A stretch of 64,000 nt of DNA from [Pseudomonas] carboxydohydrogena (lineage in GTDB: Bacteria; Pseudomonadota; Alphaproteobacteria; Rhizobiales; Xanthobacteraceae), in NCBI RefSeq assembly GCF_029030725.1, contig NZ_CP113162.1:742501-806500 (forward strand), read 5' to 3'. The notes beneath the pieces are model-generated. The model did not search any database and was not told where the DNA came from. It saw only the letters and a program-made list of their open reading frames with translations. Below, piece after piece: positions 55,379-63,671 of this stretch; position 1 is the first letter of the stretch, and the number at the start of each line of letters is the position of its first letter. Both the position numbers and the translations under genes were made by a program.

Positions 55379-55963
55379 TTAGTCATTTGCGTTCGCCGCT
55401 CGCCCCTTGGACATGCGGATGTGATAGTTCGGGAAGGATTCCCCGGTTTCGTATCCCTTGTCTCGCACCCAGTGAAACAGGTCGAGGAAGGTCCCTTTCT
55501 TGAAAGCGCCCGGCATCGTCGCGACGGCGGCATCTCTGACGGTCGTATTCTTGGGAGCGGTCTCGGGGAGAAACACGATCGTCGGCGTAAAAATAAAGCC
55601 CCATTTCCGGGCAGCCGTCTTTTCGGTGAGCTTGGTGCCGTCAAGATCGGTCACTTCCTCATCGCCGAACAGATTGTATTCAACCACCATGAAATTCTTC
55701 TGGAGGTAGTCTCGGACTTCCGGATCGGACAGCACCTTTTCGTGCATTTCCTTGCAGTAGATGCAGCCGCGCTGTTCATAGATAATGACCAGACGCTTTC
55801 CCTCCGCGGCCGCGGACCTGATGTCTTCGCCGACATCCTTGAATGTGACGGCAAACCACGGTTCCCGATGTAACCCATCTTCGCCGACCTCGCCGGCACG
55901 AACTGCACTCAGCCCGAATAAAACCAGGCTGGCGGCAATCATCGAGATTCTCAGCATCTTCAT
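55379..55963 (-). CDS. SoxW-like periplasmic thioredoxin
   Basis: A 194-residue exported thioredoxin-fold protein: signal peptide (ending AVRAG) and redox site C67-I-Y-C70 after EQRG. The IYEQRGCIYCKEMHEKVL segment and the cis-Pro region FTPTIVF match SoxW of thiosulfate-oxidising bacteria. It would take electrons from the CcdA-type protein encoded just upstream (gap of three bases) and reduce a periplasmic target. No other sox genes lie in the window. Confidence 0.88.
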   Translation of the reverse strand: MKMLRISMIAASLVLFGLSAVRAGEVGEDGLHREPWFAVTFKDVGEDIRSAAAEGKRLVIIYEQRGCIYCKEMHEKVLSDPEVRDYLQKNFMVVEYNLFGDEEVTDLDGTKLTEKTAARKWGFIFTPTIVFLPETAPKNTTVRDAAVATMPGAFKKGTFLDLFHWVRDKGYETGESFPNYHIRMSKGRAANAND

Positions 55964-55966
55964 GTC

Positions 55967-56698
55967 CTATCCAAGAGTTTGGAACGCTGGAAACATCTTT
56001 ATCAGCAAGTTTGAAATCTCGGACATCTTTCCTGTCACGAAAAGTATGCCGGTCAGGACGAGGAGGCCACCGGCAACTTTCTCGACCTTATCGAGATGGG
56101 TTTTGAATTTGGCGAATAGATGCATGAACTGTCCCATGAAGACGGCAGCGAGAATAAAGGGGATGCCGATCCCGAGGGAATACGCCATGAGAAGAAGAGC
56201 GCCGTGCATCGCGGAGCCCGCGCTGCTTGCGATGAGAAGAATGGCTGCCAGTATCGGTCCGACGCAGGGCGTCCAGCCGAAGGCGAAAGCCAGGCCAACA
56301 ACATAGGCGCCGACTAAACCGGCGGGCTTGCGGTCGACGTTCAGGCGAAGCTGTCGATAGAGAAACTCGATACGAAAGACGCCCAGAAAATGTAGCCCCA
56401 TCACAATGATGATCAGGCCGGCGATGACGGACAGGGTGTCGAAATATTGAGCGACGGTCTTTCCGATAAGGCTCGCCGTCGCGCCCAGCGCGACGAAGAC
56501 CGTCGTAAAGCCAAGAACAAATGCAACCGCGACCGCAGCCAGACGCAACCGCGAGCGATCGGCTCTCGTATCGCGTAGATCGTCAAAACTAATGCCCGCC
56601 ATCCAGGCGAAATAAGGAGGAACGATCGGCAAAACACAGGGCGAAATAAATGAGAGCAGGCCAGCCAGCAAAGCGCTGCTCAAAGAGATGTCCAGCAT
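55967..56698 (-). CDS. CcdA/SoxV-type thiol-disulfide electron transporter
   Basis: A 243-residue six-helix membrane protein carrying electrons from cytoplasmic thioredoxin to the periplasm. The redox cysteines are Cys21 in ISPCVLPIVPPYF and Cys145 in GWTPCVGPIL. It is first in a two-gene operon with the SoxW-like protein. As cytochrome c maturation genes are absent here, SoxV is the better comparison. Confidence 0.92.
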   Translation of the reverse strand: MLDISLSSALLAGLLSFISPCVLPIVPPYFAWMAGISFDDLRDTRADRSRLRLAAVAVAFVLGFTTVFVALGATASLIGKTVAQYFDTLSVIAGLIIIVMGLHFLGVFRIEFLYRQLRLNVDRKPAGLVGAYVVGLAFAFGWTPCVGPILAAILLIASSAGSAMHGALLLMAYSLGIGIPFILAAVFMGQFMHLFAKFKTHLDKVEKVAGGLLVLTGILFVTGKMSEISNLLIKMFPAFQTLG

Positions 56699-56840: not shown

Positions 56841-57164
56841 TTAGGTGGCTGGCGTCCCTGACAGCGGGCGGTCGGCGAAGGCGACGATCGATTTGCGCAA
56901 TATGCGGCCTTCCAGATCCGTGCTCAGGCGCGCGCGGCGATTGCTGTAAAAGAAGCTGAGGCGGAATTCTCCCGCGTGTTCTTCGAACCCGCGCTCGCAG
57001 ACGCTGGTGATTTCTCCCTGACGCATCAGGAGCGGCACGCGTGAGGCGGAAAGACCCAGCAGTTCGCCGATCAGCGCTGCATCCACCATGAATGTATCGT
57101 CGCTGATATCGACCGCGCCCTGGCGGGTAGTTGCCGGGCTGTTCTCCCTGGGACATTTGACCAT
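56841..57164 (-). CDS. Small conserved protein, possibly DUF6522
   Basis: A 107-residue soluble protein with a domain from about 18 to 107 (FMVDAALIGELLGLSASRVPLLMRQGEITSVCERGFEEHAG). It resembles the DUF6522 proteins I associate with anaerobic/NO gene groups in Bradyrhizobiaceae, but I am not certain. AAGGAGA precedes the ATG. It is divergent from the cluster that follows and shares the palindromic operator, 26 bases upstream of its start. Confidence 0.6.
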   Translation of the reverse strand: MVKCPRENSPATTRQGAVDISDDTFMVDAALIGELLGLSASRVPLLMRQGEITSVCERGFEEHAGEFRLSFFYSNRRARLSTDLEGRILRKSIVAFADRPLSGTPAT

Positions 57165-57189
57165 TGCATTTCTCCTTGCCGAAACACCG

Positions 57190-57218
57190 TAAAAGATATA
57201 TACAAAATATATCTTTTA
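57190..57218. promoter_or_regulatory. NsrR-like operator 1 (29-bp palindrome)
   Basis: TAAAAGATATAT (57190-57201), ACAAA, ATATATCTTTTA (57207-57218): perfect 12-bp arms. The inner 23 bases align with the NsrR consensus AAGATGyATTT-n-AAATrCATCTT in size and in the AAGAT/ATCTT ends. It lies between divergent genes, 16 bases from the GTG of one and 26 from the ATG of the other, so a bound repressor would block both. Confidence 0.75.
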
Positions 57219-57233
57219 GACGGGAGATCAATC

Positions 57234-57734
57234 GTGACCCTTCAGATGGAAATGCAGGCGGGTTCGCGTCCCGCGCATGGCCCGGCTCTCTGTCAGGCGC
57301 TGCCGCCGCCGCCGCCAATGGATCGCGGCGTTGCGACGCCGGTCCGGCTTTCAACGGCGGAGCTTGCGTTCCGAATCTTTGCTATCTTTCGCGGGCATCC
57401 GCACATCAGCAACGTGCTGACGCACATTTCGCGCGCGAACTGGACCCAGGTGGAGCGTGAGCTGAACGTCATTCTGAACCCGGCGGCGACGGCCGACCGG
57501 CTTTCGCCGCTGGCGCGCAACATCGTCGATTTGATGTGCGCCGAGCGCGGCGTGACCGGGAAGATTCTCAAACCATACTTCCATGCCGCCTTGCAGAGGT
57601 TGCTTGGACCGGAGGAGGCGGAGTCGCTGATCCGCCATGTCGATGCGCTGTTTCTTGAGATCGAATGGAAGGCCGATCATCCCGGGCCGGCTCTCTCTGC
57701 CAAGGAGGGCGGCCATGACCGAACCGCGCACTGA
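57234..57734 (+). CDS. Unknown protein, first gene of the DUF2249 cluster
   Basis: A 166-residue soluble protein. The first 35 residues are Pro-rich and disordered (LPPPPPMDRG); the remainder is helical (AELAFRIFAIFRGHPHISNVL, LSPLARNIVDLMCAERG). No family recognised. GGGAGA supports the GTG start immediately after the palindromic operator. The following DUF2249 gene overlaps its end by 20 bases, so they are co-translated. Confidence 0.7.
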   Translation: MTLQMEMQAGSRPAHGPALCQALPPPPPMDRGVATPVRLSTAELAFRIFAIFRGHPHISNVLTHISRANWTQVERELNVILNPAATADRLSPLARNIVDLMCAERGVTGKILKPYFHAALQRLLGPEEAESLIRHVDALFLEIEWKADHPGPALSAKEGGHDRTAH

Positions 57735-57996
57735 CGAGCGGGTGATCGACGTTCTCGACATCGAGCCTCAACACCGCCACGCGATCCTGTTTCGCCTGTT
57801 CGAACACCTGACGCCGGATCAATCGTTGCAGCTTGTCGTCGATCACGACCCAAGGCGGCTCCGCATGCAACTGGAGGCGTCTCATGGCTCGCGATGCGGC
57901 TGGTCCTATCTGGAGCAAGGTCCCGATCGCTGGCGGGTCCGCCTGCGTCTGCTTGCGCACGAAGGTGCGCGTCAGGATGGGAGGCCGGAATGTTAA
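57715..57996 (+). CDS. DUF2249 domain protein (first copy)
   Basis: A 93-residue single-domain protein. VIDVLDIEPQHRHAILFRLFEHLTPDQSLQLVVDHDPRRLRMQLE is the DUF2249 core with the VxDHDP motif. The family occurs in NO- and anaerobiosis-regulated genes and next to hemerythrin or ScdA-type proteins; its fold resembles TusA-like sulfur carriers, but no catalytic Cys is present in the expected place here. Start after AGGAGGG. Confidence 0.85.
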   Translation: MTEPRTDERVIDVLDIEPQHRHAILFRLFEHLTPDQSLQLVVDHDPRRLRMQLEASHGSRCGWSYLEQGPDRWRVRLRLLAHEGARQDGRPEC

Positions 57997-58202
57997 GCAA
58001 CTCGCATCGTTACGTGCTGCCGCAGAGCGAGGCGGAATGGAGATCGCTGGAGGCGATGATCGGCGAGGACTTCGCAAGGTGTCACCCGGGCGAGACGCTG
58101 GAGGATATCAGGCGCCGGGCCGCGTTCTCGAAGGAGGACAGGGGTCTGCTCCGGGACTGGGTGGCGGCCGCATCCGGGCATAAAATATATCGTGCCGTTT
58201 GA
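57990..58202 (+). CDS. Small unknown protein in the DUF2249 cluster
   Basis: A 70-residue protein, helical and acidic/basic mixed (EAEWRSLEAMIGEDFARCHPGETLEDIRRRAAF). The ATG overlaps the stop of the DUF2249 gene and GGGAGG precedes it, so translation is credible. One Cys-His pair (RCHPGE) stands out. No family recognised. Confidence 0.7.
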   Translation: MLSNSHRYVLPQSEAEWRSLEAMIGEDFARCHPGETLEDIRRRAAFSKEDRGLLRDWVAAASGHKIYRAV

Positions 58203-58212
58203 TCTAGCTCAT
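58199..58212. promoter_or_regulatory. Possible FNR/FixK-type site before the USP gene
   Basis: TTGA-TCTAGC-TCAT matches TTGA-N6-TCAA in seven of eight bases. It lies about 70 bases before the GTG, consistent with activation at -41.5. It overlaps the stop codon of the previous gene. Confidence 0.4.
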
Positions 58213-58274
58213 GCCGCCGCCGCCCCGGGCAGTTATCGTTGAGCAACCAGACCCGCTGAATACGGGAGGCTGCC

Positions 58275-59096
58275 GTGAGCTACAAATCGATTGGCGCGAG
58301 CATGGCGCTCGGCACCTCGAACAGGGCGTGTCTGACGATCGCGGCCGAACTCGCGGAGCGTTTCCATGCGCGCGTGATCGGGATGGCGGCAACGACATTG
58401 CCCGCGCCACTCTATTATACCGATGGTTCGTATGGAGCCGAATTTCTGGAACGCGAGGGGGCGGGCCTTCGCCAGAGCCTTGTGCATGCGGAAGCGGAAT
58501 TCCACCACGCATTGGATGGGCGCATCAAAACTGCCGAGTGGCGCGATAGCCTGACCATCGCCAAGGATTTCATTCCGGCGCAAGCCCGTAGTGTCGATAT
58601 CGTTGTCACCGCCGCACAGGGGGAGGGCGACAGCGATCCTTACGCCATGGCCAGCCCATCCGATCTGGTGATGGGGGCCGGACGCCCGGTCCTGATCGTG
58701 CCGCCGTCGGCGACATGGCTGGATTTGCGCCGGATTCTCGTGGCGTGGAAAGACACCCGGGAATCGCGCCGCGCGGTTGCCGACGCGCTGCCGCTCCTTC
58801 AAAAGGCGGAAGAAGTCACCGTCGCGGAAGTCTGCGATGCGCTCAGCGAACCGGCGGCGAGCGAGCGGGCCAATGATGTGGCGGCATGGCTGGCCCGGCA
58901 TGGCGTGGCTGCCTCGGCGATCACGAAGGAAGACACCAATACGCCGGAGAACCTGGAGACCATCGCATCCGATATGGGTGCGGGTGTGATCGTTGCCGGC
59001 GCCTACGGCCACTCACGGTTGCGGCAGTGGGTCCTTGGCGGGGTGACGCAGCATTTCATCACCCGCCCGTCGCGATGTGTACTTTTGTCGCGCTGA
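58275..59096 (+). CDS. Two-domain universal stress protein
   Basis: A 273-residue protein of two UspA domains (about 1-140 and 150-273). The second has the ATP-type loop G-x2-G-x9-G-(S/T): GAYGHSRLRQWVLGGVTQHFI. The start GTG follows GGGAGG. USP pairs are commonly induced by low oxygen in these bacteria, in line with the FNR-like site upstream. Its role is probably signalling or protection under respiratory stress. Confidence 0.9.
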   Translation: MSYKSIGASMALGTSNRACLTIAAELAERFHARVIGMAATTLPAPLYYTDGSYGAEFLEREGAGLRQSLVHAEAEFHHALDGRIKTAEWRDSLTIAKDFIPAQARSVDIVVTAAQGEGDSDPYAMASPSDLVMGAGRPVLIVPPSATWLDLRRILVAWKDTRESRRAVADALPLLQKAEEVTVAEVCDALSEPAASERANDVAAWLARHGVAASAITKEDTNTPENLETIASDMGAGVIVAGAYGHSRLRQWVLGGVTQHFITRPSRCVLLSR

Positions 59097-59441
59097 GGCA
59101 TCGCTGACAGGAGCAGGCGCGGCGATCGCTTTCCGCGTCATGACATCCCCGCTCTCGATTTTGTGAAGCAGAAACTCTCGGCCGAAAAAGCATCGGCGGC
59201 CTTTGCCGTTCGCATGGATGCCCGCGCGATCAGGACGCCGCGGATAGCGCGGACGAAACCGTCTTAAAACATATATTGACAATGTATCTTTTAGGGACGA
59301 TGCTTCTCCCATCTGAAGACGGCAGGCCGCAGACATCGAACGACGCAGCGGTCTTCGGGAGACGACGTTCCGCGCGTTCGCGGACGCGGTGCGGCGCAAG
59401 CGCCGGCCGATCGAGATCAATCCCATGGTAGGAGCCTGACT
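59097..59441. other. Intergenic region with operator 2
   Basis: 345 bases. Holds the second 29-bp palindrome. A 40-codon open stretch (59321-59441) ends just before the next gene but has no start codon with a ribosome site. No terminator was recognised after the USP gene. Confidence 0.5.
59265..59293. promoter_or_regulatory. NsrR-like operator 2 (29-bp palindrome)
   Basis: TAAAACATATAT (59265-59276), TGACA, ATGTATCTTTTA (59282-59293). Arms match in ten of twelve positions, with the same 12-5-12 layout and ATCTTTTA end as operator 1. It lies 149 bases upstream of the DUF2249 gene at 59442. Confidence 0.7.
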
Positions 59442-59702
59442 ATGTCCGATGCCACCAACACTTCGAACGTCAACAAGGTCGATGTGCGCAGCCTGATCCC
59501 GGCGCAGCGCCACGCGAAAATCTTCGAACTCGTAAACAAGCTGACGCCCGGCGGAAGTTTCATCCTGGTCAACGATCACGATCCGAAGCCGCTGTACTAT
59601 CAGCTCGAGGCTGAATATCCGAAGCAGTTCTCCTGGACCTATGTCGAGCGTGGACCGGAGGTCTGGCAGGTGGAGATCGGCAAGCTCGCAAAGGCTGCCT
59701 GA
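59442..59702 (+). CDS. DUF2249 domain protein (second copy)
   Basis: An 86-residue protein: DVRSLIPAQRHAKIFELVNKLTPGGSFILVNDHDPKPLYYQLEAEYPKQFSW covers the whole DUF2249 domain, including the canonical NDHDPKPL motif and the following tyrosines. Closest to the family consensus of the copies here. It starts after GGAG and is followed by the membrane protein gene, probably in one operon under operator 2. Confidence 0.9.
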   Translation: MSDATNTSNVNKVDVRSLIPAQRHAKIFELVNKLTPGGSFILVNDHDPKPLYYQLEAEYPKQFSWTYVERGPEVWQVEIGKLAKAA

Positions 59703-59767
59703 GTCTTTCCCGCGAGGCTCGCGCCGGAATTCCATGCACCGGCGCGGGCTTCGATAAGGAGGTGCGC

Positions 59768-61117
59768 ATGGTCGGCGTTTCACTGTCGCGATGGTCGATG
59801 TCCTATTTTGCCGCGGCGCTCGTTGCGTTGCTCGCGGCCGAAATCATGATGGCGACGGGCTTCGGCTTTCCGGCCGTGGCGATCGCATCGCCCGATACGC
59901 TGATCCTCGTGCATGTCGTCGCCATCGGCTGGCTCAGCCTTTTGATGTGCGGCGCGCTTCTCCAGTTTCTGCCGGTTCTCGTGGCGCAACCGCTCCATAG
60001 CAATGCGCTTGCGGTGCCTGCGCTGGCTTCGCTGATCGGAGGTCTTGCAGCCTTGATTCTCGCGTTCCTGCAATTCGGAGGACGCATCGATGTGGGCATT
60101 CCTTTCTTCACGGCGGCCGCCATCCTGTTGAGCATTGGTTTCGCGCTGGTGCTGTATAATCTCGTGCGGACGATGATCGCGTCGAAGACCGTGCCGCTGC
60201 CGGCGTGGTTCGTCGCGGCGGGGCTCGCGAGCGTCGTCGCGACGGTAACGCTCGGGGTGATTTTCTCTCTCGTACTGGGAGGCGTGATCGAATCCGGGCC
60301 GCTCTTTGCGCTGGTCGGAGCAGGGCTTCCCATTCACGCGGTCGCGGGTCTCGGCGGCTGGCTCACCTTTACGGCGGTCGGCGTGAGCTATCGGCTGCTC
60401 GCGATGTTCATGCTGGCACCGGAGCTTGAGGGCGCGCGCCCGAAAAGTGCGTTCTATTTGGGTACGGCGGCGCTCACGATCGTGATCGTCGGCGGAGTTG
60501 TCACGATTCTTCTCGAAGGCAACCTGTCGCTGACATTTCTTGCCGCGCTGGCCGTGGCGCTTCCGGCATGCGCATTTTACGGCCTCGATGCCGTCCATCT
60601 CTATCGTGCGCGCAAGCGCCGGAATATCGAACTCAACAGCCGAACGGCCGGGATCGCTCTCGGTTATCTTGCTGTGTCGGTCGCGCTGATCCTGGTTCTT
60701 CTGGCGTTGGGGCGCCTGGGCGATCACATCGGCGTCGTGGTCTTTCTGGTCGCATTCGGCTGGCTCACGGGGCTTGGGCTCTCCCAGCTCTACAAGATCG
60801 TGGCATTTCTCACCTGGCTTGAATGCTACGGACCGGTGCTCGGCAAGATCCAGACGCCGCGCGTGCAGGACCTCGTGGTGGAGGCGCGCGCGATCAAGTG
60901 GTTCGTCCTCTATTTCGCAGCGGTCGGGATCGGTGCTGTGGCGCTGCTTGCGGATGCGCCGACGGCCTTCCGGCTTGCCGCCGTTGCGATGGCCGCCGGG
61001 ACCACAGGCATTGTCGCGCAACTGATACGCACCCGCCGTCTGGCGGATGTGAAGGCGGAGGCGCGCCTGCCGCAGGGCGTCCATCTCCCGCACCTTCTGC
61101 TGTCGTGCCACACCTGA
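59768..61117 (+). CDS. Polytopic membrane protein with heme-oxidase-like His segments
   Basis: A 449-residue protein with about twelve helices. Two segments repeat a pattern: VHVVAIGWLSLLMCGALLQFLPVL (helix 2) and IHAVAGLGGWLTFTAVGVSYRLLAMF (helix 6-7), each a His followed by Gly-Trp, as in proteins distantly related to heme-copper oxidase subunit I and to NnrS. Heme binding by these His is inferred, as is a link with NO. The other oxidase metal ligands are not all present, so it is unlikely to be a true oxidase. AAGGAGG lies before ATG 59768. Confidence 0.72.
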   Translation: MVGVSLSRWSMSYFAAALVALLAAEIMMATGFGFPAVAIASPDTLILVHVVAIGWLSLLMCGALLQFLPVLVAQPLHSNALAVPALASLIGGLAALILAFLQFGGRIDVGIPFFTAAAILLSIGFALVLYNLVRTMIASKTVPLPAWFVAAGLASVVATVTLGVIFSLVLGGVIESGPLFALVGAGLPIHAVAGLGGWLTFTAVGVSYRLLAMFMLAPELEGARPKSAFYLGTAALTIVIVGGVVTILLEGNLSLTFLAALAVALPACAFYGLDAVHLYRARKRRNIELNSRTAGIALGYLAVSVALILVLLALGRLGDHIGVVVFLVAFGWLTGLGLSQLYKIVAFLTWLECYGPVLGKIQTPRVQDLVVEARAIKWFVLYFAAVGIGAVALLADAPTAFRLAAVAMAAGTTGIVAQLIRTRRLADVKAEARLPQGVHLPHLLLSCHT

Positions 61118-61137
61118 TCGAAAGAGGAGATTATGCG

Positions 61138-61671
61138 ATGACAACATCGTTCGTTGAACTGGATGTCCGGCCGATCCTCCGCGATGGCGGAGAACCTTTC
61201 GGAGAAATCATGGGCGCGGTGACCAGGCTCCAGCCGGGGCAGGGGTTGAAATTGCTCGCGACCTTCAAGCCCACGCCGCTGTTCAGCGTGCTCGGCTCGA
61301 AGGGTTTCAGCCATGAAGCGCGCGAGATCGGCGGCGGGGATTGGGAGGTTCTTTTCAGCCCGGCGGACGGGGTGCCAAACTCGGAACCGCCTGTGGCCGC
61401 GCCCGCGCGGGACACGGCGGAGTGGCCCGATCCCGCCCAACATCTCGATAACCGCGATCTCGATCCGCCGGAACCGATGGTGCGCATTCTCGCGGCCACG
61501 GAAGAATTGAAGAAGGGCGAGGTGCTGTCCGCTCTGTTGTGCCGCGAGCCGATCTTCCTGCTTCCGGAGCTTGCGAAGCGCGGTCATGCCTGGCGTGGCG
61601 GCTTCGAGAGTGACGGCAAGACCTACAAGATTCTGGTGCGGATCGGCGCGGCCGATATGGCTGCTGTCTGA
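61138..61671 (+). CDS. Double DUF2249 domain protein
   Basis: A 177-residue protein with two DUF2249-like domains joined by an acidic/Pro linker: residues about 1-75 (VELDVRPILRDGGEPFGEIMGAV, QGLKLLATFKPTPLFSVLGSKGF) and about 103-177 (MVRILAATEELKKGEVLSALLCREPIFLLPELAKRGHAWRG). The NDHDP motif has drifted to TFKPTP and LCREPI, so the domains may have different ligands. One Cys in the second domain. It follows the membrane protein by 20 bases. Confidence 0.82.
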   Translation: MTTSFVELDVRPILRDGGEPFGEIMGAVTRLQPGQGLKLLATFKPTPLFSVLGSKGFSHEAREIGGGDWEVLFSPADGVPNSEPPVAAPARDTAEWPDPAQHLDNRDLDPPEPMVRILAATEELKKGEVLSALLCREPIFLLPELAKRGHAWRGGFESDGKTYKILVRIGAADMAAV

Positions 61672-61732
61672 GCATGCAGTTTCGTGGCCGCCGTTTCATC
61701 GCGGCCGCGAGGTCTGACGCAGGAGGTGTGCA

Positions 61733-62374
61733 ATGTTCATTCAGACGGAAGAAACGCAGGATTCCGAACGGCTGAGATTTCTCCCGGGCCGTGAGGTGCT
61801 GCCCGAGGGGACGCTTAACCTCAAGACAAAGGAGCAGGCCGCTTCGTCGCCGCTCGCTGAGCAGCTTTTCGCGATTCCCGGCGTCGCCGGCGTGCTGCTC
61901 AACAAGGATTCGATCGTGGTGACGCGGTCGGGCTCGGACTGGCAGCATCTCAAGCCTCCGATTCTAGGCGCGATCATGGAGCACTTCATGTCCGGCGCGC
62001 CGGTGGTGCGAACGCCGCCCGGCGTTTCCGCTCCCGCCGTCGCATCGGGCGGGGAGGGCGATGCGAGCGCCACCGGACAGATCCGCGAGGCATTGCGGCG
62101 GGTGATCGATCCTGAGCTTGGCTACAACATCGTCGATCTCGGCCTTGTTTACGATGTCACGGTCGAGGATGGCGGCGTCACCATCGTGACGATGACGACG
62201 ACCACGCCGGGATGCCCGGCGACGAATTATCTGAAGACAGGCGCGGGCGAGGCGGCGAGTTCGGTCGATGGGGTGGAGTTTGTCGATGTCAGGCTGACCT
62301 ATGAGCCGCGCTGGACGCCGGACATGATGACGCCCGAGGCGAAAGCGCATCTGGGTATCGGGAGCCAATGGTGA
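61733..62374 (+). CDS. Nfu_N-MIP18 fusion, Fe-S cluster assembly factor
   Basis: A 213-residue two-domain protein. Residues 1 to about 88 match the Nfu/NifU N-terminal domain (MFIQTEETQDSERLRFLPGREVLP, LAEQLFAIPGVAGVLLNKDSIVVTR). Residues about 115-195 match MIP18/DUF59 (IREALRRVIDPELGYNIVDLGLVYDV, TTTTPGCPATNYL), with the conserved Cys near 163 that coordinates or transfers clusters. The NifU-type CxxC domain is absent. Such a fusion would deliver Fe-S clusters, fitting repair after nitric-oxide damage. AGGAGG precedes ATG. Confidence 0.88.
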   Translation: MFIQTEETQDSERLRFLPGREVLPEGTLNLKTKEQAASSPLAEQLFAIPGVAGVLLNKDSIVVTRSGSDWQHLKPPILGAIMEHFMSGAPVVRTPPGVSAPAVASGGEGDASATGQIREALRRVIDPELGYNIVDLGLVYDVTVEDGGVTIVTMTTTTPGCPATNYLKTGAGEAASSVDGVEFVDVRLTYEPRWTPDMMTPEAKAHLGIGSQW

Positions 62375-62607
62375 GCGAAGCCGTCGCGCCAGTGCGTCGT
62401 CCGGGCGAGGATAAGGTGATCGCAGGGGCCATGCGCCTGCCTGAAATTCTGCTGGCGAGCCTGACGGCCCTCGCCGCCGCCGGAGAAGTCGAGCAGGCTT
62501 GCCGTCTCGCCGGTCAAGCCTGCGTGATGCTGCGCGCCAGCGATCCTGCCGCGTCACGCCGTTTCGACGTTCTTCTTCACCGGCTGACGCGCAAGCTCGA
62601 TTGGTGA
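62368..62607 (+). CDS. Small helical protein, last gene of the cluster
   Basis: A 79-residue protein, mostly one helix pair (LPEILLASLTALAAAGEVEQACRLAGQACVMLRAS), TPR-like in spacing, with two Cys. The ATG overlaps the stop of the preceding gene, and a GTG three bases on is also possible. No family recognised. Translational coupling ties it to Fe-S assembly. Confidence 0.7.
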   Translation: MVSEAVAPVRRPGEDKVIAGAMRLPEILLASLTALAAAGEVEQACRLAGQACVMLRASDPAASRRFDVLLHRLTRKLDW

Positions 62608-62621
62608 GAGCATTGTCTCCG

Positions 62622-63671
<1,050 letters not shown>

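Follow-up and report, generated by a model that had tools for sequence, protein, structure and literature searches.

A gene cluster of [Pseudomonas] carboxydohydrogena that is built around DUF2249 proteins and carries two NsrR-like operators is best read as a nitric oxide (NO) protection module repressed by NsrR. It lies in the 64-kb stretch that we analysed, here called the window, which spans 742501-806500 of a single-contig genome of 3.27 Mb. For the whole reading, regulation and product roles included, we put the probability at roughly two in three; the case is strong for the regulation and moderate for the function. The features concerned, in window positions, are as follows.

56841..57164, minus strand: P1, DUF6522 protein of 107 amino acids (PF20132, E 3.6e-28), divergent from P2 across operator 1
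57190..57218: operator 1, NsrR-like site between the divergent starts of P1 and P2; core 57193-57215
57234..57734, plus strand: P2, 166 amino acids, no sequence family
57715..57996, plus strand: P3, single DUF2249 (PF10006, E 8.1e-21)
57990..58202, plus strand: P4, 70 amino acids, conserved, no Pfam match
58275..59096, plus strand: P5, universal stress protein (PF00582, E 6.9e-10)
59265..59293: operator 2, NsrR-like site upstream of the P6-P10 cassette, with a predicted -35 box TTGACA at its centre (59276-59281)
59299..59304, plus strand: candidate -10 box GATGCT, 17 nucleotides (nt) past TTGACA, read from the sequence
59442..59702, plus strand: P6, single DUF2249, first cassette gene (PF10006, E 3.7e-30)
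59768..61117, plus strand: P7, 12-helix membrane protein with the haem-copper oxidase subunit I fold
61138..61671, plus strand: P8, two DUF2249 domains (PF10006, E 1.6e-35, two stretches)
61733..62374, plus strand: P9, Nfu_N fused to a MIP18/SufT-type iron-sulphur (Fe-S) assembly domain (PF08712, E 9.3e-23; PF01883, E 1e-18)
62368..62607, plus strand: P10, conserved small protein of 79 amino acids, last cassette gene

Operator 1 is a perfect inverted repeat of 12-5-12 layout, TAAAAGATATAT-ACAAA-ATATATCTTTTA, whose core reads AAGATATAT-N5-ATATATCTT. Operator 2, TAAAACATATAT-TGACA-ATGTATCTTTTA, shares this layout, but two of its arm pairs are imperfect. An earlier reading made from the letters of the DNA (the sequence-only reading) had pointed to two 29-bp palindromes of identical layout, and both are where it placed them. 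They are the sole matches in the window at up to three mismatches. A chance origin was rejected, with no match in 100 dinucleotide shuffles, none to the reversed pattern in the genome and none in the control loci described below. Both sites fit the published NsrR consensus gATGyAT-N5-ATrCATc (PMC1274295). Of 29 sites that precede P6, 28 have the hexamer TTGACA, formed by the spacer and its neighbour, in one and the same phase, with a hexamer resembling a -10 box about 17 nt further on; this argues that operator 2 covers the predicted -35 box. Simple occlusion of the promoter would then be the natural mechanism of repression.

When the 23-bp core was used to scan the organism's own genome, 12 sites were found at up to three mismatches, against 0 for the reversed pattern. 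Beside the two in the window, they include sites before the genes for a truncated haemoglobin (trHb), whose identity as a globin was confirmed, the 7Fe ferredoxin FdxA and a cupin/DUF454 pair. A two-domain multicopper oxidase that is a weak relative of NirK (L008:263-1318, at about 1.2498 Mb) is preceded by two NsrR-like sites, at 1250814 and 1250985, likewise among those found by the scan, and nirK has a weak site some 350 bp upstream. This is the content expected of an NO regulon. Several genomes of the order (G306, G346 and G180) contain repeated copies of AAGATGCATTGAAAATGCCTCTT, apparently a repeat element that resembles an NsrR site.

The sequence-only reading presupposed an NsrR/Rrf2 gene somewhere in the genome, and two clear Rrf2 genes are present, at 0.939 Mb and 1.545 Mb. 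The latter was rejected as the regulator, being without the Cys pattern and scoring as a distant member of the superfamily; the Fe-S-type pattern is found in the 0.939 Mb gene alone. Its product aligns to Streptomyces coelicolor NsrR (5n07) over residues 1-136 (E 2e-22), with all four cluster ligands, Asp8 and three Cys, in register; the positions of the cluster Cys are identified by entry 5n08, a mutant in which the three are changed to Ala. The gene itself is preceded, at a distance of about 100 bp, by an operator-like site, which is another of those found by the genome scan. Taken together, the ligands of the regulator, the sites and the regulon partners give good support to the NsrR proposal of the sequence-only reading, and binding of the regulator to these sites, like its release by NO, is predicted. 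In model searches the protein scored 142.9 bits with NsrR, 120.6 with RirA, 52.3 with IscR and 51.8 with CymR. The first score is below the NCBIfam annotation cut-off for NsrR (182) and RirA is the second-best model, so that one might think of a RirA- or IscR-like sensor of iron or of general Fe-S status, for which the palindromes would not be NO operators. We find this scarcely credible, since the sites match the published NsrR consensus, a haemoglobin is among the targets, NirK co-occurs with the cluster and no iron-uptake gene was seen among the genome sites examined.

The cassette, by which we mean P6-P10 (59442-62607), has an order of DUF2249 protein, 12-helix membrane protein, double DUF2249 protein, MIP18 protein and small protein. 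One scan of 84,980 species genomes gave 80 loci, of which 32 are relatives of the cluster and 48 are unrelated Nfu/MIP18 loci that served as controls. The combination of P7, P8 and P9 recurs in 30 loci of Alpha-, Beta- and Gammaproteobacteria. At a threshold score of 15 out of 18, the cassette loci (459 kb) yielded 53 sites and the control loci (720 kb) 0; the palindromes are therefore conserved upstream of orthologues, as the sequence-only reading needed them to be. P6 is found in 29 of the 30 loci, P10 in 25 by BLAST (and in more by hidden Markov model), nsrR in 14, DUF6522 in 10 and P4 in eight, and further neighbours are a carboxymuconolactone-decarboxylase family protein (8), a DUF1971 cupin (7), FdxA (5) and trHb (4). 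Among 30 loci centred on nsrR, trHb adjoins nsrR in 15 and a site is present in 23. Orthologues of P1 have their own upstream sites in four loci (L015, L016, L030 and L036), and P2 is conserved near nsrR in L011, L015, L016 and L018. Besides this genome, the Nfu_N-MIP18 fusion is found among the cassette loci only in those that match best, L010-L018; from L019 on, MIP18 stands alone. The closest named relative, Afipia sp. 1NLS2, has an identical gene order and an Nfu_N-MIP18 protein that is 97% identical.

A Pfam profile search of the window proteins found no family above cut-off for P2, P4, P7 or P10, and in particular no COX1 family match for P7. The AlphaFold2 model made from 28 orthologues (pLDDT 90.4) has a 12-helix fold that matches, over almost the whole length of the protein, the catalytic subunits CcoN of cbb3 oxidase (3mk7_D, Z 33.6, 398 residues, root-mean-square deviation (rmsd) 3.3) and NorB of NO reductase (NOR) (4xyd_A, Z 32.3, 390 residues, rmsd 3.5), at only 10-12% identity. 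Profile-profile comparison of P7 with alignments of CcoN and of NorB gave no significant result, and the relation of P7 to the oxidases therefore rests on structure. In true haem-copper oxidases (HCO), two haems and the CuB/FeB site depend on a conserved set of six His. In 48 members of the P7 family the invariant His are H49 in helix 2 and H190 in the sixth long helix only, with K343 and E352 also invariant. The identification of P7 as a true oxidase or NOR was rejected on this count of two invariant His instead of six; the resemblance to heme oxidases that the sequence-only reading saw in the His segments holds for the fold. Because there are only two invariant His despite the haem-copper oxidase fold, P7 is probably a one-haem protein rather than an oxidase, and the single haem would be placed between helices 2 and 6. 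The HCO-homology (HCOH) proteins, among them NnrS, which Pei et al. are said to have described in 2014, are reportedly 12-helix homologues with two conserved His and a denitrification context. As the class is reportedly defined, P7 matches the three-unit HCOH proteins by its 12 helices, its HCO fold and its two conserved His, and both its His count and its context fit the class. PMC11218638 cites Pei et al. 2014 as tying DUF2249 to the superfamily.

The distribution of P7 was compared with that of NO producers and NO removers in a sample of 397 genomes of the order, 21 of which, from 12 genera, have P7. NirK is encoded in 17 of these 21, the corresponding figure for the order being 78 of 367 (Fisher test 2e-9, uncorrected for shared ancestry though many families are represented). 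The figures for cNorB are 10 of 21 and 69 of 397, and P7 occurs in 0 of the 33 genomes that have cNorB without NirK. From the excess of NirK in P7 genomes and the absence of P7 from those 33 it follows that the module goes with the producer of NO and not with its remover. Among the 78 sampled NirK genomes 42 are without cNorB, and seven of the 17 genomes that have both P7 and NirK are without cNOR. In six of the 21 genomes P7 is close to that of the window, and the other P7s are more distant, several of them lying between norCBQ and nirK; five of those six have a close NsrR, and five of the six are without cNOR. The host itself encodes norCBQ at 2.6356 Mb and nirK at 2.641 Mb. The statement in the sequence-only reading that no NO reductase is visible in the region is thus correct for the 64-kb window and does not extend to the genome.

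Could P7 itself remove NO, acting as a reductase whose site is unusual, fed by the DUF2249 proteins and replacing an absent NOR? Its fold is NOR-like, and in the P7 genomes without cNorB, including the seven that have NirK, a relaxed search gave weak matches alone, in oxidase-sized open reading frames (E 1e-6 to 1e-9), with no quinol NOR evident. With at most two of the six canonical His, however, P7 could form no binuclear centre of a known type, and it coexists with a true NOR in 10 of 21 genomes. We regard this explanation as very unlikely.

The setting of P7 can also be explained, under the same NsrR control, if the cassette serves to mature or assemble one of the metalloenzymes of the NO pathway (NirK, NOR or cbb3 oxidase), with P7 as a haem- or electron-handling chaperone and P9 as a metal-cluster insertion factor. 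A second version of the cassette (P6-P9) lies within norCBQ or nirK clusters that have Crp/Fnr-type regulators (L130, L131, L134, L136 and L138), the cbb3 oxidase genes ccoN and ccoO flank the cassette in six of 30 loci (L016, L018, L024, L029, L042 and L083), and the association of P7 genomes with NirK would be expected. By textbook accounts, however, NirK, NOR and cbb3 are without Fe-S clusters, so that a MIP18 protein would have nothing to supply there; most genomes with NirK or NOR are without the cassette, and cNOR is missing from five of the six sampled genomes in which P7 is closest to that of the window. We judge this explanation unlikely. Near the second version there is no NsrR gene or site, and a scan for NnrR boxes gave few sites there, none of them consistently before P6 or P7. 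For the cassette version of the window nothing was found that indicates low-oxygen control. Of the two signals that the sequence-only reading had suggested, NO or low oxygen, only the first is supported, by the regulon partners and by co-occurrence with NirK.

The profile search agrees with the sequence-only reading on three DUF2249 proteins with four domains (PF10006 at 74 bits for P3, 104 for P6 and 121 for P8, which has two, against a curated cut-off of 29.5), on the Nfu_N-MIP18 fusion and on the gene order. P6 has an invariant DHDPKPLYY motif in the cassette loci. The second domain of P8 also scores as TusA-like (PF01206, E 1.9e-7), and P8 has no conserved Cys. P9 scores 67.8 bits with PF01883 against a cut-off of 23.5, and its Cys161 is invariant in the cassette loci; it shares this domain and a conserved Cys with the MIP18/SufT family, but falls below the cut-offs of the SufT/SUF models and is fused to Nfu_N. 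Genes for the Fe-S repair protein RIC/YtfE occur at two cassette loci (L012 and L034) and near the partial cassettes L030 and L036. The protection or repair of Fe-S clusters, which the sequence-only reading proposed, remains a conditional part of the account: the RIC/YtfE, FdxA and MIP18/Nfu_N neighbours fit Fe-S damage and suggest such a role.

DUF2249 domains have been met before in clusters for nitrate and nitrite respiration. DrpA and DrpB of Thermus thermophilus act in nitrate respiration, DrpB consisting of DUF1858 and two DUF2249 domains (PMC6282519), and in Haloferax mediterranei DUF2249 genes rise under denitrification (PMC11218638). Unlike the window, neither has a MIP18, P7 or NsrR context reported in the available parts of these papers. 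DrpA and DrpB, proposed as nitrate sensors, alter nar/dnr expression, and the DUF2249 proteins described here might likewise be signal proteins of a cassette that tunes expression and repairs nothing; the induction in Haloferax would agree. We hold this to be highly improbable, because DrpA is reported to be periplasmic (PMC6282519), DUF1858 was found by Pfam profile search in no protein of the cluster, which leaves the architecture of DrpB unmatched, and MIP18 and Nfu_N are domains of Fe-S assembly, not of signalling.

P2 has the invariant residues H55, H57, H64 and C102. For a model from seven sequences (pLDDT 78, with core blocks at 85-96), the best structural match is 2ig3_B, a truncated haemoglobin of group III (Z 8.0 over 107 residues at rmsd 4.1), and the top 25 VIA-align chains of this model are all globins. 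Foldseek gave no match under E 0.001, and neither the sequence profiles nor a truncated-haemoglobin profile was significant for P2. Helix 92-102 has no invariant His and ends with the invariant Cys102, its register against globins not being established. The globin likeness of P2 may serve as a lead. The invariant Cys stands at the position where the proximal His of helix F might be expected.

We propose the following model for the NsrR-repressed protection module. Without NO, NsrR with its [4Fe-4S] cluster would sit on the 23-bp core palindromes and block two units, namely P1 and P2-P3-P4 from operator 1, and P6-P10 from operator 2 by covering the -35 box. NO, arising chiefly from the cell's own reduction of nitrite by NirK, would destroy the cluster and free the promoters, and trHb, FdxA and others would be derepressed together with the cluster genes. 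P7 would bind NO at one haem, probably held between H49 and H190, and pass or accept electrons; the DUF2249 proteins would be its soluble partners, and P9, of MIP18 type, would deliver or rebuild Fe-S clusters.

Several points weigh against this account. The regulator falls short of the annotation cut-off for NsrR, the NirK statistic takes no account of common descent, and four of the 21 P7 genomes are without NirK over cut-off. The haem of P7 is deduced from two His, and a part of the DUF2249 proteins and of this branch of MIP18 in Fe-S repair is hypothetical.

Parts of the system were known before. Rodionov et al. 2005 (PMC1274295) treat the NsrR regulons of beta- and gammaproteobacteria, whose targets include NirK, NorB and COG4309 (DUF2249); they place COG4309 among the NsrR targets of three betaproteobacteria, note that it accompanies nor genes in rhizobia, and state that R. 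capsulatus E1F1 is the only alphaproteobacterium in which they found an NsrR orthologue. The sites of the window have the operator consensus and the 7-5-7 core layout in common with those regulons; the available text does not mention P7, MIP18, DUF6522, P2 or P4, and the window differs in having a site that holds the predicted -35 box. Proteins homologous to HCOs were likewise known. Within the library searched, no paper that we found deals with the cassette of HCOH, DUF2249 and MIP18 proteins as a whole, with its regulation by NsrR or with the -35 box inside the site. The claim of the sequence-only reading that the whole set had not been described can therefore be kept for the set as a unit and is too broad for COG4309, whose NsrR and nor contexts were reported in 2005. 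The gene set is conserved and almost unstudied.

Some neighbouring genes do not belong to the set. In P5, which the sequence-only reading called a two-domain protein, the C-terminal half alone scores above the PF00582 cut-off; and P5, counted there as a member of the set, is present here but occurs in one of 30 cassette loci, Afipia sp. 1NLS2 being the only other genome that has it. Judged by this distribution it is a passenger specific to the Afipia lineage. Downstream of DUF6522 and on the same strand, at 55379-56698, are genes for a CcdA/DsbD-type membrane protein and a thioredoxin-like protein, which could share the DUF6522 transcript; they were rejected as members of the unit, as they are found at no other cassette locus. 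A convergent gene at 62622-63671 encodes a SLAC1/TehA-type channel, a homologue of which adjoins nsrR in L011. NsrR regulons are reported to contain TehB-like genes.

A bolder version of the model, which we consider rather unlikely, is that the cassette is a new NO-handling machine, in which a protein of HCO fold without an O2/NO reduction site, holding one haem between helices 2 and 6, would work together with DUF2249 proteins and a carrier of MIP18 type, either removing NO or repairing the Fe-S damage that it does, and let NirK organisms live without NOR; P2 would contribute a globin-like protein in which Cys replaces the proximal His. The survival of partial denitrifiers that have NirK and no NO reductase is a puzzle, for which an operon that tracks NirK and is under NsrR-type control offers a concrete candidate that can be deleted. 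DUF2249, a widespread domain of unassigned function, thereby gains a setting in which it can be tested.

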